Positions 20,437 through 50,353 of a DNA stretch of 64,000 bases are shown here, piece by piece. Position 1 is the first letter of the stretch. Each line of letters opens with the position of its first letter. The translations under genes and the position numbers were made by a program. The stretch spans positions 1-64,000 of the forward strand of contig CANCER010000021.1 in assembly GCA_947375135.1 (NCBI GenBank), in the 5' to 3' direction. The notes beneath the pieces are model-generated. The model saw nothing but the letters and a program-made list of their open reading frames with translations. It was not told where the DNA came from and did not search any database. Origin of the DNA: Comamonadaceae bacterium. Lineage in GTDB: Bacteria > Pseudomonadota > Gammaproteobacteria > Burkholderiales > Burkholderiaceae_C.

Positions 20437-22038
20437 ATGACCGACACCGTTGTACCAACTGAGACCGTAGCCCCCGAGGCGCCAGAAGCCCCACGTGGTC
20501 GCCGCGCCGGTGGCGGCCGCGAGGCCAAACGCGCCGCGCGCTCGGCCCGCAGCGCCCAGTCGGTGCCCTACATCACACGCAAGATTCCCTACTTCGAGGT
20601 GATTGACGAAGAAGGCCTGGAGATCATCGAGCGCAATGCCGACACCATCCTGGAAGAAGTCGGTATCGACTTCCGCGACGATCCGGAAGCACTGGACCTG
20701 TTCCGCAAAGCCGGCTGCGACGTCAAGGGCGAGCGGGTGCGCTTCCCGCGCGGCCTGGCGCGCAAGCTGGTGCAGGACACCGCCCCCCGTGAATTCACCC
20801 AATACGCCCGCAACCCGGCGCACAACGTGGTCATAGGCGGCAAGAACACCGTGTTCGCCCCGGCCTACGGCTCGCCCTTTGTGCGCGACCTCGACAAGGG
20901 CCGCCGCTACGCCACCATTGAAGACTTCCAGAATTTTGTGAAGCTGACCTACATGGCCAATTCGCTGCACCACAGCGGTGGCACGATTTGCGAGCCGGTC
21001 GATCTGCCGGTGAACAAACGCCATTTCGACATGGTGTATGCGCACATGAAGTACAGCGACAAGCCCTTCATGGGCTCGGTCACGCACCCCGAGCGCGCGC
21101 AGGACACGGTCGAGATGACCAAGATCCTGTTTGGCGACAACTGGATGGATCCGCTCACCGGCAAGCCACGCACCGCCGTGATCAACCTGATCAACGCCAA
21201 CTCGCCCATGACCTTTGACGAGACCATGCTGGGTGCCGCCAAGGTTTATGCGCGCGCCAACCAGGCCTGCATCGTCACCCCCTTCATCCTGGCCGGCGCC
21301 ATGTCGCCCGTCACCGTGGCCGGTACCGCCGCGCAAACCCTGGCCGAGGCCCTGGCCGGCATGGCCTTTGTGCAACTGTGCAACCCCGGCGCGCCGGTGG
21401 TGCTGGGCAGCTTTGCCTCTTCCATCTCTATGCAGTCCGGTGCGCCCACCTTCGGCACGCCCGAACCGGCTTTGGTGCTGTACGTGATGGCCGCGCTGGC
21501 GCGCCGTCTGGGCGTGCCCTTCCGCTCCGGCGGCGGCCTGTGCGGCTCCAAGATCTCAGACGCGCAAGCCGCGTCCGAATCCGCCAACACCCTGATCCCC
21601 ACCTGCCTAGGCGGTGTCAACTTTGTGCTGCACACGGCCGGTTGGCTGGAAGGCGGTCTGTCCATGGGTTACGAAAAGTTCATCATGGACGTGGACCAGG
21701 CCGGCATGATGCACACCCTGCTGAACGGTGTGGATCTGACCGAAAACGGCCAGGCCATGGACGCCATCCGCGAGGTCGGCCCCGGCAAGCACTTCCTGGG
21801 TTGCGCGCACACCCAGGCCAACTTCGAGAGCGCCTTCTACCGCTCGCCGATTACCGACAACAACAGCTTTGAGCAGTGGGAAGCCGAAGGCTCGCGCGAC
21901 CTGACCCAGCGCGCCAACGCCATGTGGAAGAAGCAGCTGGCCGAGTACGAGGCGCCGGCCATGGATGTGGCGGTGGATGAGGGTATTCTGGATTACGTGA
22001 ATCGGCGCAAGGCATCATTTCCCGACTCGAACATTTAG
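20437..22038 (+). CDS. Non-pyrrolysine MttB-family methyltransferase (probable glycine betaine:corrinoid)
   Basis: The 533-aa protein is a trimethylamine methyltransferase (MttB) family member with the TIM-barrel core over about residues 60-500. The frame has no in-frame amber codon, so it belongs to the non-pyrrolysine branch, whose characterised members demethylate glycine betaine or other quaternary amines onto a corrinoid protein. The start at 20437 follows GGAGAC by 6 bases. Residues 20-38 form an Arg/Gly-rich segment beginning RGRR; the same tag appears on three partner proteins. A strong terminator follows. Carnitine, proline betaine or trimethylamine-type substrates are alternatives, but the bet, pro, sox and DMGDH genes favour betaine. 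Confidence 0.85.
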   Translation: MTDTVVPTETVAPEAPEAPRGRRAGGGREAKRAARSARSAQSVPYITRKIPYFEVIDEEGLEIIERNADTILEEVGIDFRDDPEALDLFRKAGCDVKGERVRFPRGLARKLVQDTAPREFTQYARNPAHNVVIGGKNTVFAPAYGSPFVRDLDKGRRYATIEDFQNFVKLTYMANSLHHSGGTICEPVDLPVNKRHFDMVYAHMKYSDKPFMGSVTHPERAQDTVEMTKILFGDNWMDPLTGKPRTAVINLINANSPMTFDETMLGAAKVYARANQACIVTPFILAGAMSPVTVAGTAAQTLAEALAGMAFVQLCNPGAPVVLGSFASSISMQSGAPTFGTPEPALVLYVMAALARRLGVPFRSGGGLCGSKISDAQAASESANTLIPTCLGGVNFVLHTAGWLEGGLSMGYEKFIMDVDQAGMMHTLLNGVDLTENGQAMDAIREVGPGKHFLGCAHTQANFESAFYRSPITDNNSFEQWEAEGSRDLTQRANAMWKKQLAEYEAPAMDVAVDEGILDYVNRRKASFPDSNI

Positions 22039-22104
22039 TGAAGCCAGCGCTGAGCCGCCCTGAGCTGGCTTGCGTGGGGGCTGGTTCAGCGCTTAACATC
22101 ACCT

Positions 22105-22139
22105 GGCGCACTGCTTCCCGGCAGTGCGCCTTTCTTTTT
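22105..22139 (+). terminator. Rho-independent terminator after the mttB-like gene
   Basis: The perfect 10-bp stem GGCGCACTGC/GCAGTGCGCC has a 6-base loop and is followed by TTTCTTTTT. It ends 8 bases before the ATG of the next gene, so the MFS gene either has an alternative start or depends on read-through. Confidence 0.88.
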
Positions 22140-22147
22140 GGGATGGT

Positions 22148-23431: not shown

Positions 23432-23446
23432 CCGCAGAGGCGGCGT

Positions 23447-23752
23447 TCAATCCGCCCGCTCAAAGAGCGAGGTGCGCAGCAGGGCGGCCACATCGCGCGC
23501 ATCGAACGCGATGACGCACCCCGGCACATCGACCCGGTACACGCGCGCACTGTAGGGCCCGCGCACATTCAGTGGTGCATGGCCCAGGTAGCGCAGAGGC
23601 TGGGTGCCAGCCGCTGAAGCGCTTGCAGCCCCCGTCGCATCACCCACGGAAGCAGGCGCCGTGGTTGGCCAGGGCGTGCGCGATGCCGCCACTGCGGCGC
23701 GCAAGGGCACGGTGGTCGAGAGGGCCTCGCGGCGCTGTGAGCAGCAGGACAT
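23447..23752 (-). CDS. Hypothetical 101-aa protein, last gene of an unrecognised trio
   Basis: From the ATG at 23752 (AAAGG upstream, 17 bp after the previous stop) the protein has a low-complexity Ala/Thr half. A conserved-looking C-terminal domain follows: LRYLGHAPLNVRGPYSARVY, then VIAFDARDVAALLRT. This half resembles small phage-derived structural proteins with an R-Y-x-G...V-x-G-P-x-S pattern, a weak resemblance from memory. It is the third gene of an operon with the DUF1360 protein and the 712-aa protein. Confidence 0.55.
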   Translation of the reverse strand: MSCCSQRREALSTTVPLRAAVAASRTPWPTTAPASVGDATGAASASAAGTQPLRYLGHAPLNVRGPYSARVYRVDVPGCVIAFDARDVAALLRTSLFERAD

Positions 23753-23768
23753 GCACAACAACCTTTCT

Positions 23769-24065
23769 TCAAAGTGGCGCGCGCAAGGCGGTGCTGAGGT
23801 ATTCCAGCAGGCAGGCGCCGCCCGAGATCGCCAGCCACAACACCACACCGGTAGCGAAGCTGTTTGCCATCCACCCGCTCAGGGGTGCGGCGGCCCACAT
23901 GCTCAGGCAGTAGGGGCAGTCCATCAAACGCCCCAACCCGCCCGGGCCGGCGCGCACACGCAGGGCAACCACGGCACCCCAGGGCCCATCTTCATGCGCC
24001 ACCAGATGGGCCACCCGCCACGCCGCCAGCACCGCCAGCACCAGTTGAAACCAGGGGCTATCCAC
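23769..24065 (-). CDS. DUF1360-type small membrane protein
   Basis: The 98-aa protein has an N-terminal membrane segment (FQLVLAVLAAWRVAHLV), a central MDCPYCLSMWAA motif and a second membrane segment (TGVVLWLAISGGACLLEYL). The Cys-x2-Cys-x3-W pattern and the R-x-x-H-L-V start fit DUF1360, a family of unknown function known from sporulation-associated genes in Firmicutes. It lies 18 bp after the 712-aa gene. Confidence 0.65.
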   Translation of the reverse strand: MDSPWFQLVLAVLAAWRVAHLVAHEDGPWGAVVALRVRAGPGGLGRLMDCPYCLSMWAAAPLSGWMANSFATGVVLWLAISGGACLLEYLSTALRAPL

Positions 24066-24083
24066 GGGCCGGACGCCGGCGCC

Positions 24084-27008: not shown

Positions 27009-29069
27009 TCAGCTGGCCGCGTTGGGCCGGCCAATGGCCTCGGCCACGATGGTGGCCTGCAGCAGGCCGGTGTCGTCGCGCGCGTTGGGCATGTATTGCT
27101 TGCTGATGCTGAGCTTGACCTGCGGATGCGGCGCACCCATTTCCACCACCGCGTCATGCGCCAGCTGCTTCGCCAGAGCCTGCGCCGTTTCCAGCGCTTC
27201 CATGGCGTTGGTGAACTGCTGTGTGCTGGCAGCAGAGTGCATGCGGAACAAGCCGGTGCCGTCGCCCATCACCTCCACCGTCACGCTGTGCGCCACCACG
27301 CCGGTGGCGGCGCCCACGGCATTCGCCACTTCGCAAAATGCGGGGAACAGCACTTCGCAGCCCAGGCGGCGTTGCACCTCTTCGTAATACACCTTGACCG
27401 GCCCGCCCACGGCGACCACCGGGATGACGGGCTTGAGGCTGACCGAGGCCAGCCCGAGCGCGCCCTTACCCGAGCAGACGGCGTGGATCAGCGGGTTGTC
27501 CGCCATCTCCACGCCAAAGGCGGTTTGCAAAATGGCCAGGCCGGTCAGGCGCACGGTCTCGTTCCAGACGTCCTGCGCGAACGCATGGGTGCGCTCCGCA
27601 GTGGGCAGCTTCATGTCGCGCAGGCGGCAGGCCAGCTGGGTGGCCATGGTGGCCGCTTCAACCGACCAGTTGGCCTGCAGGCCCAGCACATGCGAAACGT
27701 CCGAAGGCGTGAGGCTGCTGACCTGCACCAGGCCCTTGCGTTGCAGGCTGGCGATGGAGCGCTGGGAGCTCAGCGACGTGGCCAGTTTGCGCAAAGGTTT
27801 GGGCGCATGCGTGATGGTTTGCAGCGTCTCCAGCTCGCGGGCTGTGAGTCCGTTGTGTTCCTTGTCGCTGTCGGCAGAAAACGGCAGCAGCACAAACTTG
27901 CCGTGCATGGAGCCGCCGCCCTGTACATCATCCAGATCGGCGCGCAGCATGGCCAGCACCTGCGGATAGCGCGCCGCCACCAGCGACACCGGCGCCACGC
28001 GCTGCGGCCCGACCTGGATGCGGCCGTTGGCATGCAGCGTGATTTCGCTGTCGCCCCCTAAGCCAATGGTGCGCACGTCGATGGCGCGCACCATGGTGCG
28101 CCAGCCGCCGACTTCGGCGCCTTCTTCTTTGATCTTGGGGCGCCCGTCCATCAGCAGGCCCAGATCGGTGGTGGTGCCGCCCATGTCGGACAGGATGAAG
28201 CTGTCCAGGCCGCTCAGCCATTGCGCGCCGACCAGGCTGGCGGCGGGGCCGGACAGCACGGTCTCGATCGGGCGCGTGGCCACCGATTCGGCCAGCGCCA
28301 GCGAGCCGTCACCCTTGACGATCATCAGCGGGCACTGGATGGACAGATGGGCCATGGCACGCTGCACCGCGGCGATCAGGCCGGAGATGCGGGGGATCAG
28401 ACGTGCATTGAGCACAGCCGTCAGCGCGCGGCGCGGCGCGTCCAGCGCGGAAGACAGTTCGGTCGACAGCGTCACCGGTTTGCCGGTCAGGGCCACGATC
28501 AAGTCGCGCGCCTGGTGTTCATGGTCGGCATTGCGGGTGGCAAAGCTGGAGGCCACGGCAAAGGCATCCACCCGGGCGTTCATGCCGGTCAGCGCGGCTT
28601 CCAGCGCCTCTGCATCCAGCGGGCAGATGGCGTCGCCGTTGTGGTGATGGCCGCCGGCAACCACGGCAATCGGAATCTCGGGGAAGGCTTTGGCAATGCC
28701 GGTGCGCTCCACCATGGCGGCGTCAAAGCCGATCAGCACCACGCCGGTGGCGCCGCCATGGCCTTCGACCACGGCATTGGTGGCCAAGGTGGTGGACACC
28801 GACACCATGGCTATGTCTTGTGGCGGGATGTCATGCGACAGCTTGGCCAAAGCTTGCGTGATGGCCTCGGTCACGCCCACGGCCAGGTCGCCCTTGGTCG
28901 TGATGGCCTTGGCCGTGGCCAGGATGCGGTGGCCGCGCGCCTCGATGATGGCGGCGTCCGTATAGGTGCCGCCGGTGTCCACGCCAATCAGGTAGGTGGT
29001 CTTGGTGTCCGCCTTGGCCAGGTCAGGCCCACCCTCCGGCTGAGCGGTCTGCCCTGCCTGGCCGGCCAT
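27009..29069 (-). CDS. HyuA-type hydantoinase/oxoprolinase family ATPase (copy 2)
   Basis: The 686-aa protein is a second HyuA-like ASKHA ATPase: GVDTGGTYTDAAII at about residue 28, SDMGGTTTDLGLL and RTIGLGGDSEITL. The chosen ATG (29067-29069) shares one base with the TGA of the S-methyltransferase gene (TGATG), so translation is probably coupled. Sequence upstream of that ATG in the longer frame is the arginine-rich shadow of the upstream gene. As with copy 1, no HyuB partner exists. Its link to a betaine/homocysteine methyltransferase suggests a role in the methyl-transfer pathway, not ring opening, but this is not proven. Confidence 0.8.
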   Translation of the reverse strand: MAGQAGQTAQPEGGPDLAKADTKTTYLIGVDTGGTYTDAAIIEARGHRILATAKAITTKGDLAVGVTEAITQALAKLSHDIPPQDIAMVSVSTTLATNAVVEGHGGATGVVLIGFDAAMVERTGIAKAFPEIPIAVVAGGHHHNGDAICPLDAEALEAALTGMNARVDAFAVASSFATRNADHEHQARDLIVALTGKPVTLSTELSSALDAPRRALTAVLNARLIPRISGLIAAVQRAMAHLSIQCPLMIVKGDGSLALAESVATRPIETVLSGPAASLVGAQWLSGLDSFILSDMGGTTTDLGLLMDGRPKIKEEGAEVGGWRTMVRAIDVRTIGLGGDSEITLHANGRIQVGPQRVAPVSLVAARYPQVLAMLRADLDDVQGGGSMHGKFVLLPFSADSDKEHNGLTARELETLQTITHAPKPLRKLATSLSSQRSIASLQRKGLVQVSSLTPSDVSHVLGLQANWSVEAATMATQLACRLRDMKLPTAERTHAFAQDVWNETVRLTGLAILQTAFGVEMADNPLIHAVCSGKGALGLASVSLKPVIPVVAVGGPVKVYYEEVQRRLGCEVLFPAFCEVANAVGAATGVVAHSVTVEVMGDGTGLFRMHSAASTQQFTNAMEALETAQALAKQLAHDAVVEMGAPHPQVKLSISKQYMPNARDDTGLLQATIVAEAIGRPNAAS

Positions 29070-30172
29070 CACGATGCGGACTTGTCGGTGTCGCCCGCGG
29101 CGGCTGCACCACCCGAGCGGCGGCCCCGGCCGCGGTTCAGGTTGGCACCCGCGGCGGCGCCACCGGCACGGCTTTGCTCGCCACCCCATTGGGCGCGTGC
29201 GCCGGTGGAGATCTCGCCCAGGGCGCTGACCACTTCTTCCAGTTCCGGTGCCCGGCCCTTGGTGTGCGCGTCCAATGCGTCCTTCATGGCGCGCAAATGC
29301 TTAGGGCTGGTGCCGCAGCAGCCGCCGATGATGCGCGCGCCCGAGTCCAGCGCCATCTTGGCGTAAATGCTCATCAATTCGGGCGTGCCGTTGTACACAA
29401 TGCTGCCGTCCACATACTGGGGGATGCCGCAGTTGCCCTTGGCCACCAGCACCACGTCCGGGCCCATGGCCACCGACAGGTTGTGGATGCAGGCCACCAT
29501 TTCGGAGGCACCCACACCGCAGTTGCTGCCGCAGGCCGCCAGGCGGGGCGACAGGGTCTTTTCGATCTCGGAGAAGTCGCTGGGCGATATGCCCATCATG
29601 GAGCGGCCATTGGTGTCAAAGGAGAGGGTGCAGACCACCGGCAGACCAACCGAGCCGGCACCGGCCACAGCGGCTTCCACCTCTTCGCGCGAGGACATGG
29701 TTTCAATCCACAGCACATCGGCGCCACCGGCGGCCAGGGCGCGCGCCTGCTCGGCAAAGGCCTCTTGTGCCAGTTCCTTGGTCAGCGGGCCTATGGGCTC
29801 CATGATTTCGCCGGTGGGGCCGATGCTGCCGGCCACGACGACGGTGCGGCCGCTGGCGTCAGCAACGGAGCGTGCTATTGCGGCAGCGGCGGTGTTGAGT
29901 TCGGCTACGCGATCCTGCGCCTTGTGCAATTTGAGGCGGTACTGGGTGCCGCCGAAGCTGTTGGTCAGGATGATGTCGGCACCGGCATCGACAAAACTCT
30001 GGTGCAGCTTGGCAATGCGGTCGGGGTGCTCGGTGTTCCACAGCTCGGGGGCGTCGCCCGACATCAGGCCCATGTCAAACAGGTTGCTGCCGGTGGCGCC
30101 GTCGGCCAGCAGCCAGGGGCGGGTGGCGAGAAGGTGGGTAAAGCGGTTATCGGAGGGCTTGGTGGTGGTCAT
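29069..30172 (-). CDS. bmt: Betaine/homocysteine S-methyltransferase (zinc family)
   Basis: The 367-aa protein belongs to the zinc-dependent homocysteine methyltransferase family. DGATGSNLFDMGL begins the barrel, and zinc cysteines appear in CGSNCGVGASE and ARIIGGCCGTSPKHL. It is similar in size and context to the Bmt enzyme reported from Sinorhizobium meliloti betaine catabolism. Substrates would be homocysteine and a methyl donor, either betaine directly or a methylated corrinoid protein. The last 40 residues are a Gly/Ala/Arg tail with RGRR at 349-352, the tag shared with three corrinoid-pathway proteins. Start at 30172; the frame further upstream is not protein-like. Confidence 0.85.
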   Translation of the reverse strand: MTTTKPSDNRFTHLLATRPWLLADGATGSNLFDMGLMSGDAPELWNTEHPDRIAKLHQSFVDAGADIILTNSFGGTQYRLKLHKAQDRVAELNTAAAAIARSVADASGRTVVVAGSIGPTGEIMEPIGPLTKELAQEAFAEQARALAAGGADVLWIETMSSREEVEAAVAGAGSVGLPVVCTLSFDTNGRSMMGISPSDFSEIEKTLSPRLAACGSNCGVGASEMVACIHNLSVAMGPDVVLVAKGNCGIPQYVDGSIVYNGTPELMSIYAKMALDSGARIIGGCCGTSPKHLRAMKDALDAHTKGRAPELEEVVSALGEISTGARAQWGGEQSRAGGAAAGANLNRGRGRRSGGAAAAGDTDKSAS

Positions 30173-33526: not shown

Positions 33527-34222
33527 ATGAATCACGCAAATACAAACTCTGCAGGTACATCCAAAGCGACCGATCCGGTCCAGCGTTACTCACGCTTGAC
33601 CATCGCCACCCACTGGATGTCGGCCTTGGCCATGGCCATCCTCTTTGGCTGTATCTGGTCGCGCGAATACATCGAAGAGTACGCCCTGCGCGTGAACCTG
33701 TTCGAGATGCACCGCCAGATGGGCTTGGCAATCTTCGTCCTGTTTTTTGTGCGTGTGGCCGCCAAGAAGTTTTTACCCAAGAAGAAACCGTCCGGTCCGC
33801 AGATGGGCAAGCTCGAACACCTCGCTGCGACGTGCAGCCATATCGCGCTGTACATCGTTCTGTTTGTGATGCCGGTGGTCGGCTGGCTCATCACCAATGC
33901 CCAAGGCCACGCAGTGCACTTCATGGGCTCGTTCACATTGCCGCAACTGGTTGGCAAGGATGAAGACATCGAAGACGTTTTGCTGATGGTCCACGAATAC
34001 GGTGCCGACCTGTTGGTCGGGATGATCGGTCTGCACTTCGCCGCCGCCCTGTTTCACCACTTCGTCAAGAAAGACCACGTGCTGGCCTCCATGGTTCCGC
34101 TGATCGGCGAAACCGCTGTGAATGAACATCCAACGGAAACACCTGCGCTCGGGCACAACGTGACCGTCCTGGATGCGAGCTTCATGGAAACCATGCCCTC
34201 AGGCCTGGATGACGTTCGATAA
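33527..34222 (+). CDS. Cytochrome b561-family membrane protein (copy 1)
   Basis: The 231-aa protein has four membrane segments with the b561 pattern: RLTIATHWMSALAMAILF, LHRQ-type loop (EMHRQMGLAIFVLFF), HIALYIVLFVMPVVGWLI and VGMIGLHFAAALFHHFV. These supply the two heme-b histidine pairs. It should pass electrons between the quinone pool and a periplasmic acceptor, probably the cytochromes encoded at 38638-40033. The ATG follows AGGA by 7 bases. Its C-terminal tail differs from copy 2. Confidence 0.9.
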   Translation: MNHANTNSAGTSKATDPVQRYSRLTIATHWMSALAMAILFGCIWSREYIEEYALRVNLFEMHRQMGLAIFVLFFVRVAAKKFLPKKKPSGPQMGKLEHLAATCSHIALYIVLFVMPVVGWLITNAQGHAVHFMGSFTLPQLVGKDEDIEDVLLMVHEYGADLLVGMIGLHFAAALFHHFVKKDHVLASMVPLIGETAVNEHPTETPALGHNVTVLDASFMETMPSGLDDVR

Positions 34223-35052: not shown

Positions 35053-37095
35053 CTACGAATCTGCCGCAGCCGAGCGGCGCGATTCCGGCAACACCAGGGT
35101 GAACGTGATCCAGGAGTCCTCAGGCTGGTACAGCAGATCTCCGCCCTGACGGCGCGCCAGCAGGCGAGACAAATGCAAGCCCAGGCCCGAGCCGTTGATG
35201 CGCTGTACTCCCTCGCCACGGTAGTATTTTTGAAATAGCTGTGCCGCGTCCGGCATGGGCCCGTCTGGCGCATGGTTGCTGATACGGACCCGCTGCATGG
35301 CTCCCTCCGGGGTGCGCTCACGCACAACCCCTACGTGGATGGGCGAACCCTTGGGCGCGTATTTGAAGGCGTTGTCGAGCAGGTTATTAAAGATGACGGC
35401 GAGCATGCGCGGGTCCGCCAGGATCTGCGGCATGGGGTCTGCAGTGGCATTGCGCAGGCGGGATTTGTCGACCTGGGCTTCGCATCGCAACTTCAGTTCC
35501 ACCGCAAGCGAACACGCTACCTGCTGAGGCGGCGCGCAGTTGTCTTCGATATGCGCCGACTGCGCACAGTGTTCAATTACCTGGCGCATGGATGCCAGGG
35601 CCATCACGGCATGGCGCTGCATGGTGCTGCTGGCGGCGGGCGAGCCTATCACCATACCCAGGGTCGACAAGGGTCCTTTGAGCTCATGCGTGAGCATGGC
35701 CATGAATTCCTGCTGCCGCTGCCGCTCGCCGCGCTCAAAGTCCAAGGCGATTGCATTCAACTCGGCCTGGCGCTTGTGCTCCACCTGCAGTTGCCGGTCC
35801 GTCTGCATGCGCTGCCAGCCCACCAGCAGCAGCACGCCCAACGCGCACATGACGTATATCGGGGTGAGTAGCCCGAAAAAGGAAATATGTTGTGTCTTGT
35901 AAAACCCGGCTGAAAGAGAGGCGGTCCACGAAATCCCGATGACCAAGCTGAAGCCGGCCTGCTGCGCGCGCCTTTTTACCAAGCTGAATTTGCTGTTGCT
36001 AGGCAGAGGCTTTTGTTCAAAAGTCAGACTGCTGGCCACCAGACCCAGTGCTATCGTCATGTACAGGCCAAAGAAGACGAGTCTGAGCAGTGCCAACTGT
36101 CCGGCCCAAATCAGCAGCGGGCATAAGAGGATGACCGCAAGCAGCAGGCGCAGCAGAAGCAGGGCCCGGGGTGACGCCTTGAATAGCTGCTGTACCTTGA
36201 TGAAAAACCAGAGGCTGACTGCCAAATTCAAAAGCCGCATGCATTCCACCACAGGGCTGCCCATGCCCTCTCGTTGCCACGGCAGCATGTCGGTTCGGAT
36301 CGCCAGAAAAAGAAGATCCGCATTGGTAAGGGTCATGGTGAAGTTGAGCACCTGCTTGATGAGCAGCGCCTGGCCAATGCCTTTTCGATCTGCCAGCCAA
36401 ATGCCCAAACCAATAATGACCATGAAGGCCTGCCCGCCGATGAGCACGCCCTGCAGAACGCCGTCCGATAGCACTTTGGCCTTGTCTTCTTCAATCGATA
36501 ACACCATCGTCTTCAGGTAGGTTGAGCCGCCTGGATCCAGACGAAGCCAGAGATCGCGCGGTTCAGTTCCCACAGGGATGGCCAACGATTGCAATGCGTA
36601 GGGTCCTGAAGCTGGCTGGGTGTCCAAGCGACGCAAGTGTCCGCCAGCGTCCCGTTGCAAGGGGTCATACAGCGTGAGCGACTGGCTCCATATCGGCAGG
36701 ACCAGCAAACGCTCGGACGCACCAAACTCCGCAAAAGAGGAAGGCGCCACGCGCAGGCGCACCCAGACTACCGACGTGCTTAGCACCCGCGCTAGTGCTC
36801 CCGTGTAGCTTGTCTCCGGTTGTTGCCTGACCTGGTCGAGTGTCATTTGCCCGGACGTGTCGGACACAAAGGCCTGTTCCACGATCTGGCTGGACGCTGC
36901 AAAACAAGCGCCATTCCAAAGCGCGGTGAACAGCAGGAGCACAACACAGCATAAAGACAATGCCATGGGACGGCGTTGGGGCAAGTGCTTCTGTATCCAT
37001 GGGGGACTGGCGTGCAAGCGCTCAACGGGAGTAACACAGGGTGTTTGCAGTCCTGTTTTCAGCAGTGCTTGCTTGTTGTCGCAACGTAGCAACAT
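35053..37095 (-). CDS. Sensor histidine kinase with 7TMR-DISM-like sensor
   Basis: The product is up to 680 aa. A signal sequence (MALSLCCVVLLLFTAL) precedes an extracytoplasmic DISM-like sensor, about seven membrane helices (about 215-430), HisKA with LTHELKGPLSTLGM and an ATPase domain with NNLLDNAFKYAP and GSGLGLHLSRLL. The usual DxGxGI box is replaced by NHAPDGPMPDA. The start is uncertain: the first ATG is at 37095, and a later one at 36966 directly begins the signal peptide; neither has a good ribosome site. Paired with the response regulator downstream. Confidence 0.82.
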   Translation of the reverse strand: MLLRCDNKQALLKTGLQTPCVTPVERLHASPPWIQKHLPQRRPMALSLCCVVLLLFTALWNGACFAASSQIVEQAFVSDTSGQMTLDQVRQQPETSYTGALARVLSTSVVWVRLRVAPSSFAEFGASERLLVLPIWSQSLTLYDPLQRDAGGHLRRLDTQPASGPYALQSLAIPVGTEPRDLWLRLDPGGSTYLKTMVLSIEEDKAKVLSDGVLQGVLIGGQAFMVIIGLGIWLADRKGIGQALLIKQVLNFTMTLTNADLLFLAIRTDMLPWQREGMGSPVVECMRLLNLAVSLWFFIKVQQLFKASPRALLLLRLLLAVILLCPLLIWAGQLALLRLVFFGLYMTIALGLVASSLTFEQKPLPSNSKFSLVKRRAQQAGFSLVIGISWTASLSAGFYKTQHISFFGLLTPIYVMCALGVLLLVGWQRMQTDRQLQVEHKRQAELNAIALDFERGERQRQQEFMAMLTHELKGPLSTLGMVIGSPAASSTMQRHAVMALASMRQVIEHCAQSAHIEDNCAPPQQVACSLAVELKLRCEAQVDKSRLRNATADPMPQILADPRMLAVIFNNLLDNAFKYAPKGSPIHVGVVRERTPEGAMQRVRISNHAPDGPMPDAAQLFQKYYRGEGVQRINGSGLGLHLSRLLARRQGGDLLYQPEDSWITFTLVLPESRRSAAADS

Positions 37096-37825
37096 AAATA
37101 ATTGTAATAATTGAAAAATTCAGAACTACCCATTTTGGGGTCTTCCACAAAATACCGATCCCAATAGCCGTACTTTGCCCGGCCCGTCGGTACGCGCTGC
37201 CCTTTGGCAATTGACCACAGTCCTCCCACCGTTGCTTGGACAAACCCACCGGCAGAGCAGCCCACTGAAGAAGTACAACTTAGCACCGCATGGTTGTGAA
37301 GGCATGTGTTGTAAGTGCCCCAACGCCAACGGCCAAAATCCCTATCGCTTTGTTGATCTGAATCAAAAAACCTAAATCATTGAATTTCGTTGATTTTAAT
37401 ATGTGGAAGCTTTTTTCGTGATGAAAAAAGTTGCAGCAGATGGCCTGGGCGTTAAGGATCCGGTCCGGCGTGTCGCCCGCGTGGGCAATAGCACCTCGCC
37501 TGCTGCACGTCCTGGCTTGTTCATCCACCCTTTGTCGGAGACGTTACCAGGGAGGCGCTATCCCCAATCGATTTCCCCCGCACACCGTGATGCTTGCGCC
37601 CGGACGGCCCGCCGAAGTCGTGTGGGCGTGGTTGAAAAACTACGATTAGTTACAAAAACGGGCAATAACTGACAAAACCCGGGAGCGCCGCCTTTAGACG
37701 TATGCGTGGAAATGCTAAGTCCGACCACAATGGATGTATCAAACGCTTTGATACATATAAATTGATAGTTCAATAAACTATTATTTTTATCAAATTAACT
37801 ATTTTTGGCATTTCAGGGAATGCAC
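37096..37825. promoter_or_regulatory. AT-rich divergent region with perfect palindrome
   Basis: No convincing gene lies in these 730 bases. The last 170 bases repeat the layout upstream of the first b561 gene. ATGTATCAAA-CGC-TTTGATACAT (37734-37756) is a perfect dyad with 10-bp arms, about 70 bp before the second b561 start, and a likely operator. TTGATAGTTCAA just after it resembles a weak FNR box. Short frames such as 37431-37649 have no recognisable protein features. Confidence 0.5.
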
Positions 37826-38506
37826 ATGACGCATGAATATAAAAAATCAGCAGGTGGCCCCGTATTGAACGAGCCGGTTCAGCGTTTCTCGCGCTTGACC
37901 ATCGCAACGCACTGGATGTCGGCCTTGGCCATGGCGATTCTCTTTGCTTGTATCTGGTCGCGCGAGTACATTGAAGAGTACGCCCTGCGCGTAAACCTGT
38001 TCGAACTGCACCGCCAGATGGGCCTGGCAATCTTGATCTTGTTTTTTGTGCGCCTGGCCGCCAAGAAGTTGTGCCCCAAGAAGAAACCGTCCGGCCCGCA
38101 GATGGGCAAGCTCGAATACCTTGCCGGCACGTGCAGCCATATCGCGCTGTACATCGTCCTGTTTGTAATGCCTGTGGTTGGCTGGCTCATCACCAACGCC
38201 CAAGGCCATGCGGTGCACTTCATGGGCTCGTTCACGTTGCCGCAACTGGTTGGCAAGGACGAAGACATGGAAGACGTTTTGCTCGTGGTTCACGAATTCG
38301 GCGCTTACCTGTTGGTCGGCATGATTGGCTTGCACTTCGCCGCCGCCCTGTTTCACCACTTCGTCAAGAAAGACCATGTGCTGGCATCCATGCTCCCGCT
38401 GATCGGCGAAACCGCCGTAGACCTTGACCAAACGAGCTCGCCCCTGCGTATCTACAACGAAAGCGCAATGGAATGCATCAACCAGGCTCTGAACGAGCCC
38501 GAATGA
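37826..38506 (+). CDS. Cytochrome b561-family membrane protein (copy 2)
   Basis: The 226-aa paralogue of the protein at 33527-34222 is nearly identical across the four membrane segments (RLTIATHWMSALAMAILF, SREYIEEYALRVNLFE, VVGWLITNAQGHAVHFMGSF). Its N-terminus and C-terminal tail differ. The ATG at 37826 is chosen because CAGGGA lies 6 bases upstream. It heads b561, cytochrome c, decaheme and porin genes, all on the plus strand. Predicted function: quinol-linked electron exchange with the downstream cytochromes. Confidence 0.9.
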   Translation: MTHEYKKSAGGPVLNEPVQRFSRLTIATHWMSALAMAILFACIWSREYIEEYALRVNLFELHRQMGLAILILFFVRLAAKKLCPKKKPSGPQMGKLEYLAGTCSHIALYIVLFVMPVVGWLITNAQGHAVHFMGSFTLPQLVGKDEDMEDVLLVVHEFGAYLLVGMIGLHFAAALFHHFVKKDHVLASMLPLIGETAVDLDQTSSPLRIYNESAMECINQALNEPE

Positions 38507-38637: not shown

Positions 38638-39006
38638 ATGATTTTTACCGCTCCCACATCCTTCAAACTTTCCGCCCTCCTGGCGCCTTTGGCGATGGCC
38701 GCCGTCCTAGGCCTCTCCAGCTCCGCCATGGCGGCTGACATCGATGCAGACGGTGCGCAAGCCCTGGCCAAGAAGAACGATTGCTTCAAATGCCATGCCA
38801 TCGACAAGACCAAAAAGGGCCCTTCCTACAAGAAGGTCGCTGCCAAATACAAGGGCAAGGCCGATGGCGAGGAAAAAGTCATCCTTAACTTCACCACCGG
38901 CCCCAAGGTCAAGCTCGAAGACGGGACCGAAGAGGACCACAAAATCATTGATACCAAAGACCCCAAGGCACTGAAGAACCTGGCCCAGTGGATCCTTGCC
39001 CAGTAG
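38638..39006 (+). CDS. Small periplasmic class I cytochrome c
   Basis: The 122-aa protein has a signal peptide (to about AMAADI), one heme site CFKCH (Cys49, Cys52, His53) and a Met-poor C-terminal domain ending LKNLAQWILAQ. The length and KKGPSYKKVAAKY segment resemble cytochrome c-552-type shuttles. The axial methionine is not obvious. Placed between the b561 and decaheme genes, it probably carries electrons across the periplasm. Confidence 0.88.
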   Translation: MIFTAPTSFKLSALLAPLAMAAVLGLSSSAMAADIDADGAQALAKKNDCFKCHAIDKTKKGPSYKKVAAKYKGKADGEEKVILNFTTGPKVKLEDGTEEDHKIIDTKDPKALKNLAQWILAQ

Positions 39007-39040
39007 TACGCATCCAGGCAAAAAATTAAAGCGATACGTG

Positions 39041-40033
39041 ATGAAAAAATTATCAAAAATCAAACAACTGGTTGCGCGCACCTTGCAATGCGTCGCGCTG
39101 GGAGCGGCCTTGCTGGGCGGTGCGGCTTTTGCTGCTGACGCACCTGCAGACCTGGTGCTTAACGGCGACGCCAAGTGCACCGCCTGCCATGATGAGGCAG
39201 ACGCACCCGGACTTCTGGCCATCGGCAAAACCCGCCACGGTGTACGCGCGGATGGCCGCACGCCCACCTGCGCCAGTTGCCATGGCGAAAGTGTGGCCCA
39301 CCTCGGCTACAAAGGCAGTGGCAAGCCGCCGGCACCGGATGTGGGTTTTGGCAAGAAGAGCAAGAACACGGCTGCACAGAAAAATGTGGCGTGCTTGAGC
39401 TGCCATGGAAAAGACAACAAGCACCAGCAATGGGATGGCAGCGCCCATGCGACCAATGGCGTGGCCTGCTCTTCCTGCCATGAGACGCATAACGGCCACG
39501 ACAAGGTGCGCGACAAACGAACGCAACCGGAAGTCTGCTACGCCTGCCACAAAGACCAGCGCGCCGATAGCAAGAAAGCTTCGCACCACGCGATTGGCGA
39601 GGGCAAGGTGACATGTTCCGATTGCCACAATCCGCACGGATCGACCGGCCCCAAGATGCTGAAAAAGAACACGCTCAATGAGACCTGTTTCACCTGCCAC
39701 GCTGAAAAGCGCGGACCGTTCCTGTTCGAGCACCAACCCGCGGTTGAAAGCTGCAGCAACTGCCACAACCCCCATGGCTCCAACATCAAGCCCTTGCTGA
39801 AGTCACGCGCACCCTTCATGTGCCAGGAGTGCCACGATGCACCGCACGCCAGCGGCACGCCCGTAGGTCCTAATGCTGCGGGTTACCAGGGTGGCCTGTC
39901 GCGGGTGAACGCCGCTACGCCGACCCCTGCTGCGGTGTACCCCAGCAAGAACGCGGTAGGCAATGCCTGCATGAATTGCCACACGCTCATTCACGGTTCG
40001 AATAGCCCCGCAGGCGGCTACTTCCAGCGCTAA
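39041..40033 (+). CDS. mtrA: MtrA/DmsE-family decaheme cytochrome c
   Basis: From the ATG at 39041 the 330-aa protein has a signal peptide (to AFAADAP) and ten CxxCH heme sites at about 46, 77, 118, 143, 166, 192, 216, 238, 261 and 310. The count and spacing match MtrA, PioA, MtoA and DmsE. In those systems the decaheme protein sits inside the outer-membrane porin and carries electrons through it. mtrB follows after 16 bp. Whether electrons run outward (metal reduction) or inward (Fe(II) oxidation) cannot be told from sequence. Confidence 0.93.
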   Translation: MKKLSKIKQLVARTLQCVALGAALLGGAAFAADAPADLVLNGDAKCTACHDEADAPGLLAIGKTRHGVRADGRTPTCASCHGESVAHLGYKGSGKPPAPDVGFGKKSKNTAAQKNVACLSCHGKDNKHQQWDGSAHATNGVACSSCHETHNGHDKVRDKRTQPEVCYACHKDQRADSKKASHHAIGEGKVTCSDCHNPHGSTGPKMLKKNTLNETCFTCHAEKRGPFLFEHQPAVESCSNCHNPHGSNIKPLLKSRAPFMCQECHDAPHASGTPVGPNAAGYQGGLSRVNAATPTPAAVYPSKNAVGNACMNCHTLIHGSNSPAGGYFQR

Positions 40034-40049
40034 GCACAGGGGATACATC

Positions 40050-42404
40050 ATGAAAACGAACAAACCATTTTTTGCCTTGAACCCCCTGGCCCTGGCACTC
40101 CATGGCGCACTGGTCGCCCTGTGTGCCCTGCCTCTCTGTGCTGTTGCGGCAGACGATGCGGTGCAGGAGCTGATTCAACCCGCCAACACCGTTGAAATAG
40201 GTGCTGCTTTCACCACCCAGAAGTCTGCCAAGTTTGGCGAATACAACGGCCTGAACAAGGCAGAGGGCGTTGTCCTGGGTGGCTTTGAAATCCATGGCGG
40301 CGACGCACATGATGGCCGCAATGGCCTGACTTCCTGGCAGTTGCGGGGCCGGGATCTTGGCACCACGAGCCGCGAACTCACAGCCCAGTTCAGCAAGCAG
40401 GGGCAATGGGATATCGGCTTTGGCTACGACGAGTTGACGCATCACTTGACGGACACCTACCAGACCCCCTACGTCAGCAGCAGTCCCAATAGCTTTCGTT
40501 TGCCCGCTGGCTTTGGCACCATTGCCAATACCAATAACGCAGTCACTGCCGCGCAACAAGCGGCATTCCATACGGTGGACGACGTAGGACCCGGCAGGAA
40601 AGACACCTCGCTGAGTGCCGCCTACCAAATGGATGCACGCTGGAACGTCAAGCTGGATTTCAATCACCTGGACCAAACCGGCACCAGGATCATGTCGGTA
40701 GGCTCAGCGAAGTTGAAGTTCGCAACGGATGCGACACTGCCCACGGGTGAGGCCATTTCGTACCTCACCGTGCCCACCCAATACACCACCGACACCACGA
40801 CGCTGGCCCTCAATTGGGCAGGCGACGGCACGCATGTGACTGCTTCCTACTTTTTATCCCTCTTCAAGGACGGGTACAACAGCTTGGGTTTCCAGACCTA
40901 CGCGGGTGCCAACAACATGCAGACCGTGAGCACGGCGCCCAGCAACAGCTTTGAGCAGTTCAATGTCTCGGGCGATTACAAACTGGCTGCAAAGACCAGG
41001 CTGAGTGGCGGTCTGTCCTATGGCTTGAACCAGCAGAACGAAGCCTTTGCGGTGGACTCTTTCATGTACGTGACGCCCAGCGCGGCCCTCGGGAACCTAC
41101 TCACTTCCTTGAACGGCTCGGTGGAGTCCACCCACGCAGACTTGAAGATCAGTGACCAAAGTGTGGCCCACTGGAACTTGGCTGCCGGCGTGAAATACGA
41201 CGATCGCCACAACAGGACGCCTTCCAACATCTACAACGTGCCAGCCATTGACGGTAGCAACATCTACAACTACCCGAACACGCCGTTGAGCACGGAAAAG
41301 ACGCAGTGGGAATTGTCGGGTGATTACTGGATGTCGGATGATCAGCGCATTCACTTGGCCTACAACAACGACGACGTACGCCGTTTTTGCAGCCAGTACG
41401 CCGTAGGGGGTTCCAATTACCCGGCTGGAACCAACTGCGTGGTGGCCAAACATAGCACCGACGACAAGCTGAGTGCAGGCTACAAGCTCCGGGCCAGCGA
41501 CACCGTGGATATGCAGGTGGGCTATTCCTACAGCGTCCGAAAGACCGACTCGGATGTGAATGCAATTGTGGCCATGATTGGCATACGTGGCGGTGACGTG
41601 GGCGCGACGGCTGGAACCATCAAGGGCCTCAATGGCGGTGACTATCGCGGGTTCTATCCATACTTTGATGCATCCCGCACGCAGCAGGCCGTCAAAGCAG
41701 GCTTCAATTGGGAGGCCAACGACAAGCTCACGCTGGGCGTGACCGGTCGCTATACCGATGACAATTACGACTCCCCATACGGCGTGAAAAATGGCAATAC
41801 CTGGGGCGCGAGTCTGGATGCCGCTTACAACTACAGCGATACCGCTTCCGTCACCGCCTACATTTCCCAGCAAAGCCGCTATCGCCAACTGACGGACGAG
41901 CAGCGCAGCCAGGCGCAGGGCGCTGGCGCTGCCACTGCCACAGCCATCGCAATCCCGATGGGTGCAAGCTGGACCAACACGCTCACCGATGAAGACCTGA
42001 CAGTGGGAATCGGAAGCAAAAAGTCCGGCTTGTTGGGTGGCAAATTGGCGTTGGAAGGCGATCTGTCCTACTCGCTGGGCACCAGCAAGTACGCCACTGC
42101 CTTGAACTACAGCACGACCACCACGGGTGGCGTGGGGTGTGCCGATCCCCGTATCTTTACCTGTGGTGCACTGCCCACGGTGAGCAACGAAATGGTGAGC
42201 CTGAAGCTCAAGGGAACCTACCAGCAAGACAAGCAAACCAAGATAGCCATCGCCTACCAGTTCCAACAATTGGTGTCGAGCGACTATTACTTCAATGGTT
42301 TGCAGGCGGGAGCGAATCCCAGTGCACTGCTGGCAACCAACGAGCAGGCGCCGAACTATGCCCTCAGCGTTATTTCGGCAACCTACATCTACACGTTCCG
42401 CTAG
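40050..42404 (+). CDS. mtrB: MtrB/PioB-family outer-membrane porin of the decaheme cytochrome
   Basis: The 784-aa protein has a signal peptide (about LCALPLCAVAA) and the family start NTVEIGAAFTTQKSAKFGEYNGL. A large beta-barrel with alternating aromatic strands ends ALSVISATYIYTFR. The N-terminal CxxC that marks Shewanella MtrB is absent from the mature part. It should surround the decaheme protein as a trans-outer-membrane conduit. No MtrC/OmcA-like outer-surface cytochrome follows; the next gene is betA on the other strand. Confidence 0.92.
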   Translation: MKTNKPFFALNPLALALHGALVALCALPLCAVAADDAVQELIQPANTVEIGAAFTTQKSAKFGEYNGLNKAEGVVLGGFEIHGGDAHDGRNGLTSWQLRGRDLGTTSRELTAQFSKQGQWDIGFGYDELTHHLTDTYQTPYVSSSPNSFRLPAGFGTIANTNNAVTAAQQAAFHTVDDVGPGRKDTSLSAAYQMDARWNVKLDFNHLDQTGTRIMSVGSAKLKFATDATLPTGEAISYLTVPTQYTTDTTTLALNWAGDGTHVTASYFLSLFKDGYNSLGFQTYAGANNMQTVSTAPSNSFEQFNVSGDYKLAAKTRLSGGLSYGLNQQNEAFAVDSFMYVTPSAALGNLLTSLNGSVESTHADLKISDQSVAHWNLAAGVKYDDRHNRTPSNIYNVPAIDGSNIYNYPNTPLSTEKTQWELSGDYWMSDDQRIHLAYNNDDVRRFCSQYAVGGSNYPAGTNCVVAKHSTDDKLSAGYKLRASDTVDMQVGYSYSVRKTDSDVNAIVAMIGIRGGDVGATAGTIKGLNGGDYRGFYPYFDASRTQQAVKAGFNWEANDKLTLGVTGRYTDDNYDSPYGVKNGNTWGASLDAAYNYSDTASVTAYISQQSRYRQLTDEQRSQAQGAGAATATAIAIPMGASWTNTLTDEDLTVGIGSKKSGLLGGKLALEGDLSYSLGTSKYATALNYSTTTTGGVGCADPRIFTCGALPTVSNEMVSLKLKGTYQQDKQTKIAIAYQFQQLVSSDYYFNGLQAGANPSALLATNEQAPNYALSVISATYIYTFR

Positions 42405-44650: not shown

Positions 44651-44659
44651 AAGACCGGA

Positions 44660-46117: not shown

Positions 46118-46151
46118 TACTTTCCTTGCGCGGGCTGCTCAACTGCAAGCC

Positions 46152-47266: not shown

Positions 47267-47299
47267 ACTTACGCTCCTGTGAACAAGGGACTAACGCAC

Positions 47300-49348
47300 T
47301 TACTGAATCGGGTCTGTTTGCACCGGCTTGGGGTCACGCCGCGAGGGGCGGCGCCCCCGCTGGCCCGTGTCGGTGCTGGACATGGTACGCACTGGCAGAT
47401 CCACTTCCTTGCGCAGTTCGTCAAACGGCGCGTTGAGGTGCGGAATGGCCATGGCTTCAACAAAGAATTCCTGGAAGCGCGGCTCCACCGCAGTTTCGAT
47501 TTTTTCCACGCGGCGTACCAGCGCCTCGATGTCCTTGCGCGAGCGCTGATCCAGCAGCGCAATGCGGGCACCGGTACCGGCGGCATTGCCGGCGGAGGAC
47601 ACGTTTTCGAGTTTGCAGTCAGGGATCATGCCCAGCACCATGGCGTATTTCACGTCGATGTGGCTGCCAAAGGCTCCCGCCAGGCGGATGCGGTCCACGC
47701 TCTGGATGTTGAGCCGCTCCATCAGCAGGCGCACACCGGCATACAGCGCAGCCTTGCCGAGCTGGATGGCGCGCACATCGTTCTGCATGATCTTCAAGGG
47801 CCTGGCTTCCGCCGTGGCCTTGAACAACTCATACGAAAACGTGCGTCCGTCTTCCTGGATGCGCGGGTTGCGCGCGGCACAGGCCCCGTCGATGGTGCCA
47901 TCGTGGCGGATGATGCCGGCCAGGTACATCTCGGCCAGGGCCTCGATGATGCCGGAGCCGCAGACGCCCGTGACACCGGAGCCGGCCACGGCCTCGGCAA
48001 AGCCGGGCTCGTCCGACCACAGGTCCGATCCGATCACCTTGAAGCGCGGCTCCAGGGTTTCGGGGTTGATGCGCACGCGCTCGATGGCGCCGGGCGCGGC
48101 GCGCTGGCCGCAGCTGATCTGCGCACCTTCAAAGGCCGGTCCGGTGGGGCTGGAGCAGGCCAGCATGCGCTGGTTGTTGCCCAGCACGATTTCGGCATTC
48201 GTCCCCACGTCGACGACCAGTGTCATCTTGTCGGTCAGGTCCGGGCGCTCGGCCAGCAAGACGCCAGCCGTGTCTGCCCCTACGTGGCCGGCAATACAGG
48301 GCAGCACATAAATGCGGGCGTTGCGGTGGATGGCAAAGTCGATCTCTACCGCCCACAGCGTGATGGCGCGGTCGGTCGCCAGCGCAAAGGGGGCGCCACC
48401 CAGCTCGGTCGGATCGATCCCGAGCAGCAAGTGGTGCATGATGGGATTGCCCACGAAGGTGGCTTCCAGAATGTCCTGCGGTGTGATGCCGGCCTGGGCG
48501 GCCACATCGTGCGCCAGGGTGTTCAAGGCCTCACGCACTGCGGCGGTCATTTCCTTCTCGCCGCCGGGGTTCATCATCACGTAGGAGACGCGGCTCATCA
48601 GGTCTTCGCCGAAGCGAATCTGCGGGTTCATCAGGCCGGCCGAGGCCACCACCTCACCGGAGGCCAGGTTGCACAGGTGGGCTGCAATGGTGGTGGAGCC
48701 GATGTCCACCGCCAGGCCATACACGGTTTCCTTGAAGCCGGGCCACACGGCCACGATCTGCTTGCCGGCATGCACCGCTACGGTGACCTTCCAGTCGCCG
48801 GCGCGCAGAGCTTTTTGCAGCTGCTGCAGCACGATGACGTCGCAGGCCAGCTCGGTCAGCCGCCATTCAAATTCGAGCGCGTCTTCCAGACGGCGCAGGT
48901 CGCCGCTGGGGTCGTGCATATCGGGTTGCTGCACCTCCACATAGTGCAGGCGAATCAGCGGGTCGAGCTCCACATCATGCGCTTCGGCCTCCTTGCGCAC
49001 CACCTGCTTGTGCACCTGGCTGGAGGAGGGTACGTCGATGACGACATCACCCAGCACCTGGGCCGAGCAGGACAGGCGACGCCCATCCACGAGTGGCTGC
49101 GTGACGCAATACTCCTCTTCCACCTTGCCAAACGGGCTGAGGTGGTCGAGCTTGGAGGTCAGGCCGTGTTTGGGGAACTCGCCCTCGGACACCAGCACCT
49201 GGCAGCGCCCGCAGATGCCGCGTCCGCCGCAGACTGAATCGATGTCCACGCCCAGCGAGCGGGCTGCCTGCAGCACCGGGGTGCCTAGCGGAAAACGGCC
49301 GCGACGGCCGGAAGGGGTAAATACGACCAGGGGGTCTTTTTGGCTCAC
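47300..49348 (-). CDS. RACo-type reductive activator of the corrinoid protein (DUF4445 ASKHA ATPase)
   Basis: The 682-aa protein has an N-terminal plant-type [2Fe-2S] ferredoxin domain (Cys40, Cys46, Cys49 in CGGRGICGRC, and Cys94). A linker and a large C-terminal ASKHA ATPase (DUF4445) follow, with AVDIGSTTIAAHL and LVVDVGTNAEIVLG. This is the RACo layout, not the two-[4Fe-4S] RamA layout. The protein would use ATP and an electron donor to bring Co(II) corrinoid back to Co(I). The tail (RGRR 664-667, then PSRRDPKP) carries the basic tag shared with the methyltransferases. It closes the corrinoid operon. Confidence 0.9.
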   Translation of the reverse strand: MSQKDPLVVFTPSGRRGRFPLGTPVLQAARSLGVDIDSVCGGRGICGRCQVLVSEGEFPKHGLTSKLDHLSPFGKVEEEYCVTQPLVDGRRLSCSAQVLGDVVIDVPSSSQVHKQVVRKEAEAHDVELDPLIRLHYVEVQQPDMHDPSGDLRRLEDALEFEWRLTELACDVIVLQQLQKALRAGDWKVTVAVHAGKQIVAVWPGFKETVYGLAVDIGSTTIAAHLCNLASGEVVASAGLMNPQIRFGEDLMSRVSYVMMNPGGEKEMTAAVREALNTLAHDVAAQAGITPQDILEATFVGNPIMHHLLLGIDPTELGGAPFALATDRAITLWAVEIDFAIHRNARIYVLPCIAGHVGADTAGVLLAERPDLTDKMTLVVDVGTNAEIVLGNNQRMLACSSPTGPAFEGAQISCGQRAAPGAIERVRINPETLEPRFKVIGSDLWSDEPGFAEAVAGSGVTGVCGSGIIEALAEMYLAGIIRHDGTIDGACAARNPRIQEDGRTFSYELFKATAEARPLKIMQNDVRAIQLGKAALYAGVRLLMERLNIQSVDRIRLAGAFGSHIDVKYAMVLGMIPDCKLENVSSAGNAAGTGARIALLDQRSRKDIEALVRRVEKIETAVEPRFQEFFVEAMAIPHLNAPFDELRKEVDLPVRTMSSTDTGQRGRRPSRRDPKPVQTDPIQ

Positions 49349-49438
49349 ACATCACTCCAATAATTCAAACACGCCCTGCGCGCCGGTTCACGACTGCGGC
49401 ACGCAAGCTTGCCCGCATACATCGGGCAGGCCAACCGC

Positions 49439-50353
49439 TTAGTCGCGCTTGCGGCGGCTGCCGCCTTCGCGGCGACCGCGGCCCATTTCGCCGTCGGCAC
49501 CCATGACCGGGTCTGCCCGGAACTTGCGGATCCAGCGCATGCAGTCGGGGTCGTGGCCCATCATCACGTCGGCACCCATGATGGCTTTGACCACCTCGGC
49601 GTGCAGCGGGTTGGTGATGGCCGAGGTCATGCCGGCGGCAATGGCCATGGTCAGGAAGGCGGAGTTCACGCCGTTGCGCTCGGGCAGGCCGAAGCTGACG
49701 TTGGAGGCGCCACAGGTGGTGTTGACCTTGAGCTCGGTGCGCAGACGGTGGACCAGCTGCATGACCTGCACGCCGGCCTGGTTGATGGCGCCAATCGGCA
49801 TCACCAGCGGGTCGACCACGATGTCGCAGGCGGGGATGCCGTAGTCGGAGGCGCGGTTCACAATTTTGCGGGCCACTTCAAAGCGCACGTCCGGGTCCTG
49901 TGAAATGCCGGTTTCGTCATTGGAGATGGCAACCACGGCGGCGCCGTATTTCTTCACCAGCGGCAGCACGGTTTCCAGGCGGTCTTCCTCGCCGGTGACC
50001 GAGTTCACCAAAGCCTTGCCCTTGTAGACGGCGAGACCTGCTTCCAGGGCGGCGACGATGGAGGAGTCGATAGACAGTGGCACATCCGTGACCGACTGCA
50101 CCAGCTGTATCGCCTTGGCCAGCATGCCGGGCTCGTCCGCCAGCGGGATGCCGGCGTTGACGTCCAGCATATGGGCACCGGCCTCGACCTGGGCCAGGGC
50201 ATCGGCGATGACGCGGCTGTAGTCGCCGGCCATCATTTCGGCGGCCATGATCTTGCGGCCGGTGGGGTTGATGCGCTCGCCGATGATGACGAAGGGGCGG
50301 TCAAAGCCAATGACCACTTCACGGGTGGCGGAGCTGATAACGGTATCGGTCAC
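49439..50353 (-). CDS. DHPS-like methyl-THF:corrinoid methyltransferase
   Basis: The 304-aa protein is a dihydropteroate-synthase-like TIM barrel of the MeTr/AcsE/MtgA type: IGERINPTGRKIMAAEMMAG, MLDVNAGIPLADEP, LSIDSS, IVVDPLVMPIG and NTTCGASNVSFGLPERNGVN. It should move methyl groups between the corrinoid protein and THF, here toward methyl-THF. The GTG start (50351-50353) overlaps the metF stop as GTGA. The C-terminus MGRGRREGGSRRKRD holds the RGRR tag at 292-295. Confidence 0.9.
   Translation of the reverse strand: MTDTVISSATREVVIGFDRPFVIIGERINPTGRKIMAAEMMAGDYSRVIADALAQVEAGAHMLDVNAGIPLADEPGMLAKAIQLVQSVTDVPLSIDSSIVAALEAGLAVYKGKALVNSVTGEEDRLETVLPLVKKYGAAVVAISNDETGISQDPDVRFEVARKIVNRASDYGIPACDIVVDPLVMPIGAINQAGVQVMQLVHRLRTELKVNTTCGASNVSFGLPERNGVNSAFLTMAIAAGMTSAITNPLHAEVVKAIMGADVMMGHDPDCMRWIRKFRADPVMGADGEMGRGRREGGSRRKRD

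Follow-up and report, generated by a model that had tools for sequence, protein, structure and literature searches.

Arginine-rich terminal tails on the enzymes that meet the corrinoid protein MtgC, a possible docking tag

The window analysed here, 64,000 nucleotides of contig CANCER010000021.1 (assembly GCA_947375135.1) from a Comamonadaceae bacterium, contains a betaine catabolism gene cluster with a five-protein corrinoid methyl-transfer module, consisting of MtgB-like, MtgE-like and MtgD-like methyltransferases, the activator RamA/RACo and the corrinoid protein MtgC. Each enzyme family that has to reach the cobalamin on MtgC carries a conserved terminal tail in which arginine (Arg) is selected. 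The enzymes and their pathway are already known and the terminal Arg tags appear to be the new element. We give an even chance to the reading, drawn from the sequences, that these tails are a common tag which docks the client enzymes to MtgC as their hub and replaces the linkers of the fused methionine synthase MetH.

The module is a known MtgBCDE-type split methyltransferase. The mtgB-like gene (20437..22038, + strand) encodes an MttB-family methyltransferase of 533 amino acids (Pfam MTTB, PF06253, E=2.6e-235; 781.6 bits against a cut-off of 25), whose N-terminal Arg/Gly tag spans residues 20-38 (20494..20550, + strand; RGRRAGGGREAKRAARSAR). According to family profiles, the pterin-binding methyltransferase, the homocysteine methyltransferase and RACo/RamA are separate genes in the window, all on the - strand. 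The mtgE-like gene (29069..30172) represents the homocysteine S-methyltransferase module of a split methionine synthase (NF005718, PF02574); it encodes 367 amino acids when counted from an upstream ATG (start at 30172) and has the C-terminal Arg/Gly tag RGRGRR at 29117..29134. The ramA/RACo gene (47300..49348) encodes a corrinoid reductive activator of 682 amino acids (RACo_C_ter, Raco_middle, RACo_linker, Fer2) with the C-terminal Arg tag RGRRPSRRDPK at 47327..47359, and the mtgD-like gene (49439..50353) a methyl-tetrahydrofolate:corrinoid methyltransferase of about 304 amino acids (Pterin_bind; NF005719, PF00809) with the C-terminal Arg/Gly tag RGRREGGSRRKRD at 49442..49480. The corrinoid hub protein, of 234 amino acids, is encoded by the mtgC-like gene (52981..53685, - strand). 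It is a stand-alone corrinoid protein with cap and B12-binding domains (B12-binding, B12-binding_2; PF02607, PF02310), on which the best NCBIfam MtgC model scores 204.8 bits, under its cut-off of 370. Its top named matches come from metagenome-assembled genomes (MAGs) titled beta proteobacterium, Comamonadaceae, Rhodoferax and Hydrogenophaga.

An earlier note on this DNA had drawn attention to the motif RGRR in the four enzymes. It is indeed limited to them (4/42 called window proteins) and is in frame at MtgB residues 20-23, RamA 664-667, MtgD 292-295 and MtgE 349-352 (numbered 334 in a shorter MtgE query without the first 15 residues). Per-protein shuffling gave a mean of 0.30 RGRR carriers, with at least four carriers in 0.1% of 2000 shuffles. 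The simple gene caller missed some genes, e.g. 2893-5280, 35053-37095 and 38996-40033; none of the 20 RGRR strings of a six-frame list falls in their frames, and the 16 of these strings outside the four genes belong to other frames or strands. The tag is present beyond the four genes in two other MttB paralogues of the same genome (L002, L003). The MtgE and RamA tags, which had been placed at the C-terminus, lie close to it and do not extend to the final residue.

Comparison with orthologues ruled out the exact string RGRR as the motif, since their tails read GGRRRRRR, RSRRGPRR, RRGRRR, RRRARGGGGAARRA etc. What is conserved is an Arg-rich tail at one terminus, mostly of Arg/Gly, of which RGRR is merely the local spelling; it is N-terminal on MtgB and C-terminal on MtgD, MtgE and RamA, and is set off by a variable linker. 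Tags on the latter three were scored as the best 10-residue window within the last 30 residues, with a threshold of at least 4 Arg. For these three the genome set comprised proteins with complete C-termini and at least 45% identity, close relatives included (two cut and three remote RamA and one cut MtgD were left out). Here the threshold was reached by 41/41 RamA, 29/29 MtgD and 29/30 MtgE, the remaining MtgE having 3 Arg; at least 5 Arg in 10 were present in 36, 28 and 27 of them, respectively, and two additional MtgD read later were both tagged. In a second sample, made up of 80 named and mostly proteobacterial loci around MtgC, the same threshold was reached by 50/50 RamA (5 more were incomplete), 58/58 MtgD (3 incomplete) and 10/10 MtgE, the last count excluding two matches at 24-27% identity that have no residues beyond the core. 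Azoarcus sp. KH32C, Sinorhizobium meliloti and Paracoccus methylovorus provide annotated tagged examples. Among the loci there are also MAGs titled Acidimicrobiia, Actinomycetes or Chloroflexi, in which binning errors are possible. In one of the searches, RamA matches besides the window's own were either 58-71% identical and tagged or, in one case, 36% identical and untagged.

An Arg-rich N-terminal tail is present in 101/102 MttB proteins of the genome set, down to 26% identity. At least 4 Arg in 10 were counted in 55/64 N-termini of a first batch; eight of the other nine have three Arg in the window and more nearby, and the L184 protein has a wrong start with an in-frame tag upstream. In a second batch 35/38 N-termini pass the threshold, those of L356 and L361 are basic (3 Arg plus Lys), and the L353 protein, a partial frame of 432 amino acids, is without a tag. 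In the named loci, 41/45 MttB pass as called (2 incomplete). After start-codon correction L287, L283 and L277 pass as well and L313 has 3 Arg in 10, so that all 45 carry the N-terminal tail and 44 reach the threshold. No MttB was found without RamA in 299 sampled genomes, as all 28 genomes with MttB (E<=1e-20) are within the 30 with RamA (E<=1e-60). A basic, mostly Arg/Gly-rich N-terminal tail was also seen on MttB-like proteins that share just 23-28% identity with MtgB of the window (L277, L283, L292, L304, L354-L361), and their sequences suggest that these divergent tagged proteins are further uncharacterised clients of the same hub. One genome (G055) has 8 MttB matches, including the partial, untagged L353, and a single MtgC match, which fits a reusable tag.

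The tag marks the clients and is missing from non-client C-termini of the same operons. The neighbours between MtgD and MtgC (50350..52949, - strand), namely MetF2, a methylenetetrahydrofolate reductase (MTHFR) C-terminal domain protein, a small 'virulence factor' (VF) protein and DUF1638, are untagged. Over the same loci, a count of the C-termini (last 30 residues) of control neighbours, proteins with no need to contact the cobalamin, gave at least 5 Arg in 10 in 0/227 cases (MetF2 0/36, MTHFR-C 0/40, VF 0/61, DUF1638 0/71, PurU 0/10, SHMT 0/6, ProX 0/3) and 4 Arg in 7/227. Annotated coding sequences of the named plasmids, with clients and MtgC excluded, have at least 5 Arg at the C-terminus in 3/208 cases and at least 4 in 10/208, and at least 4 Arg in 10 within the first 40 residues in 11/208. 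Among other gene calls in the named loci 14/729 pass 5 Arg in 10 at the C-terminus, most of which, judged by composition, look like spurious shadow frames. The VF protein (51940-52302, - strand) takes its label from the annotation of relatives (L233, L236) and is frequent in the neighbourhood, with 61 complete matches across the 80 named loci.

The composition of the tails is distinctive. In 150 tags, one of which (L287) is a mis-started window, Arg/(Arg+Lys) is 0.958 versus 0.619 in the bodies of the same families, and in loci of <50% GC content (20 tags) the Arg share is 0.89 versus 0.57. A single Arg codon is used throughout in only 7/150 tags, and tag Arg is independent of GC (rho -0.02). 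This preference, maintained at low GC and with mixed codons, counts against drift and against mere positive charge. The commonest residues in the 150 ten-residue windows are Arg (794) and then Gly (280), and hydrophobic residues are scarce. In the structure model of MtgD, computed like the others as a single chain, residues 286-308, which take in the tag, are under 50 in predicted local distance difference test score (pLDDT; shallow alignment of 9), and the tail is probably disordered.

The proposed partner of the tails is acidic. Residues 1-28 of the window MtgC (53602..53685, - strand) contain 11 Asp/Glu and no Lys/Arg, and its isoelectric point of 4.46 is the lowest among nine proteins examined. 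The acidity of this N-terminus, reported previously, is thus correct; judged by its model, the larger part of the segment is the helical start of the cap. In the AlphaFold model only residues 1-6 are <50 pLDDT and residues 11-13 and 16-28 are helical with pLDDT near 96, and therefore the acidic segment is no loose tail: apart from a short flexible end it mostly forms the beginning of the folded cap. In 80 MtgC the roughly 24 residues that run from the chosen start to a conserved Gln-Met/Val-His have a net charge between -5 and -14 (mean -8.4), and Leu11, Leu14 and Leu19 are invariant among 59 aligned sequences. In structural comparisons with 14 rows of fused MetH the alignment begins at model residue 1-8 (11 rows) or 18 (3 rows), and with five stand-alone methyltransferase corrinoid proteins at 15 (4jgi, 7xcn_M, 3ezx), 1 (MtaC, 2i2x_B) and 101 (1y80). 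As the leader is partly matched in MetH and other structures, no new fold is claimed. As far as the compared sequences go, the leader motif is clade-specific.

Tag and acidic leader (4-14 Asp/Glu) co-occur in 79/79 taxa in which MtgC, RamA and MtgD are all complete, a tag being taken here at >=4 Arg in 12 on RamA as well as on MtgD. In these, the tag strengths of RamA and MtgD correlate after phylogenetic correction (r=0.37, p=0.0008; 0/5000 sign flips). Before correction, tag strength is also correlated with leader acidity (rho 0.43 in 79 taxa, rho 0.47 in 49 loci); by t test this does not hold after the correction, and it is not used as evidence. No intermediates with the tag only or the leader only were seen among the homologues compared.

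Distant systems are untagged. The tag is missing in 6/6 distant RACo homologues (L033, L047 and L049 at 33-35% identity, the haloarchaeon L234, Gemmatirosa L235 and Acetoanaerobium L237), and there is no Arg/Gly tail on the MtgD-like proteins of L196, L197, L198 and L237 (29-37% identity) or on the MtgE-like protein of L235 (1/1). None of the corrinoid proteins read from L196 (two), L197, L198, L234 and L235 has the leader motif; the N-terminus of the L197 protein is mildly acidic (net -5 in 22 residues). The L234 locus lies on a Halomicrococcus gelatinilyticus plasmid (L234:9748-15864), where genes for a corrinoid protein, a RACo-like activator (37.5% identity), DUF1638 and an MtrH-like protein form an untagged cluster beside FAD oxidoreductases; the annotation of that region lists no MttB-like gene.

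The proposal of a docking role follows from the same type of tail being present on four carrier-contacting enzymes and kept across many bacteria. MtgC is the sole protein that all four clients must meet, according to established chemistry and to PMC12478193 (this paper and PMC5764234 are cited here from excerpts). With roles taken from the protein families and PMC12478193, MtgB demethylates a betaine, MtgC as the small corrinoid protein carries the methyl group, MtgD transfers it to, or from, tetrahydrofolate, MtgE transfers it to homocysteine, and RamA re-reduces the cobalamin. We infer from the sequences that the tails may bind MtgC. Such binding to the acidic protein, perhaps at its leader, would be reversible and would hold several clients near one hub while their catalytic domains alternate over the cobalamin; the tags would stand in for the covalent linkers of one-chain MetH, and a new MttB paralogue could join the hub by retaining its tag. 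For the charge-based docking tag suggested in the earlier note, the expected docking families, the conservation and the co-occurrence with the leader argue in favour, and the purely charge-based part is less well supported, since charge alone would admit Lys, which is disfavoured.

Several observations weigh against docking at MtgC. The strong Arg preference points to more than net charge and fits RNA, phosphate or condensate binding too. After phylogenetic correction, tag strength is not clearly correlated with leader acidity (r=0.14, p=0.22; sign-flip p=0.044) or with the charge of whole MtgC (r=0.20, p=0.067), and of five control pairs one, MtgD tag against RamA body Arg, is nominally significant (r=0.25, p=0.035), RamA tag against RamA body giving r=0.19, p=0.054 and the remaining three being weaker. 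In Paracoccus methylovorus (L238) the leader is less acidic and the tags are retained. Acidic N-termini are found on two corrinoid proteins of untagged systems, those of L198 (net -7 in 23 residues) and L234, which weakens MtgC N-terminal acidity as a mark of tagged systems. The MtgD-like protein of L197, an untagged system, ends with 4 Arg in 10 and that of L198 with 3, and a MetF2 of S. meliloti, one of the 11 sequences counted above, reaches 5 Arg in 10 near its N-terminus (first 40 residues). Finally, the split between tagged and untagged systems may reflect one or few ancestral events, in which case the joint presence of tag and leader does not amount to many independent observations.

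An alternative that we regard as unlikely, though the least so of those considered, is that the tails bind polyanions or form condensates through RNA, polyphosphate or multivalent contacts with acidic proteins, so that the pathway is co-localised without a specific site on MtgC. The preference of Arg over Lys with Gly as the second commonest residue is like that of RG-rich segments, the composition (Arg and Gly commonest) being that of RG/RGG-type regions with disorder judged from the MtgD model only, and the low-confidence, probably disordered tail of this model agrees with it. However, the tails follow the four families of MtgC clients and not the C-termini of neighbours in the same metabolism, and there is no reason for RNA binding to match the client set so exactly. 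It is still less probable that the tag is recognised by a different module protein, such as DUF1638 or the small VF protein, acting as adaptor or scaffold. DUF1638 adjoins mtgC, is itself untagged and, in the excerpts of PMC5764234, is required for methionine synthesis in Phaeobacter, which we count for an adaptor; yet DUF1638 is present in the untagged haloarchaeal cluster L234 too, and MtgC is the more acidic of the candidate partners.

Basic tails often direct proteins to anionic surfaces, and on this ground the enzymes might be targeted to the inner membrane or another anionic surface. Given the few hydrophobic residues in the tag windows, we think this quite improbable. That the tails are functionless drift or GC-driven CGN repeats is hardly credible. 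Although 101/150 tags are in loci with >=60% GC, tags are kept in the low-GC loci and show no GC trend, and the mixed codons, the low-GC loci and the untagged neighbours rule out GC drift or a CGN microsatellite as their origin.

Three further features of the cluster and its surroundings may be recorded. Two hydantoinase/oxoprolinase-like proteins (8561-10678 and 27009-29189, - strand) are encoded in the betaine cluster and are remotely similar to GlmL/MutL-type proteins. By reading of the sequence, 38996-42404 was assigned to a multihaem c-type cytochrome followed by an MtrB-like outer-membrane protein of 784 amino acids, with two cytochrome b561-like genes that resemble each other close by (33527-34222 and 37805-38506), assigned in the same way. 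The region has the look of a module for extracellular electron transfer.

Returning to the docking of clients at MtgC, a broader formulation, to which we give somewhat less than an even chance, is that an exchangeable Arg/Gly client tag organises a hub-and-spoke assembly or condensate at MtgC, substitutes for the MetH linkers and allows many MttB demethylases per carrier. Recruitment by a shared short disordered tag is itself a known kind of mechanism. Listings of open-licence literature on Arg-rich tags, MttB/corrinoid docking and metabolons gave no mention of the tails, and the excerpts of PMC12478193 and PMC5764234 mention neither Arg tags nor an acidic MtgC leader. MtgBCDE is reported in the former as a major ocean betaine demethylation route and methionine synthase. 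A shared client tag would explain how up to seven or eight methyltransferases use one carrier, would serve as a sequence mark for finding more hub clients, and could be a portable tether for engineered methyl-transfer pathways.

Among structures, MtgB-type 2qne and 9yce, RACo 3zyy and the corrinoid protein 1y80 have homologous catalytic cores, and their alignments are confined to the core and do not reach the tails and leader; the sequence of 4yyc, a putative trimethylamine methyltransferase, retains the tail. In carboxysomes a basic disordered segment of CsoS2 recruits Rubisco, a charged interaction of the short-linear-motif type. The likeness is one of analogy: in the present system the clients carry the tag, a small corrinoid carrier is the proposed hub, and no shell is involved. 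In fused MetH, homocysteine, folate, cobalamin and reactivation functions likewise meet at one cobalamin, but the modules are in one chain, and two fused MetH from tagged genomes are both without an Arg cluster at their termini (2/2). The closest counterpart is MtgBCDE of Ruegeria pomeroyi and Phaeobacter inhibens, which in the excerpts (PMC12478193, PMC5764234) has the same families, overlapping neighbours (DUF1638, MetF2, RamA) and a single MtgC hub. The earlier description, in Phaeobacter, is that of a split methionine synthase (PMC5764234); in R. pomeroyi the system was presented as a betaine demethylase that doubles as split methionine synthase, with genetics in Ruegeria giving mtgC and mtgD a dual role in betaine demethylation and methionine synthesis (PMC12478193).

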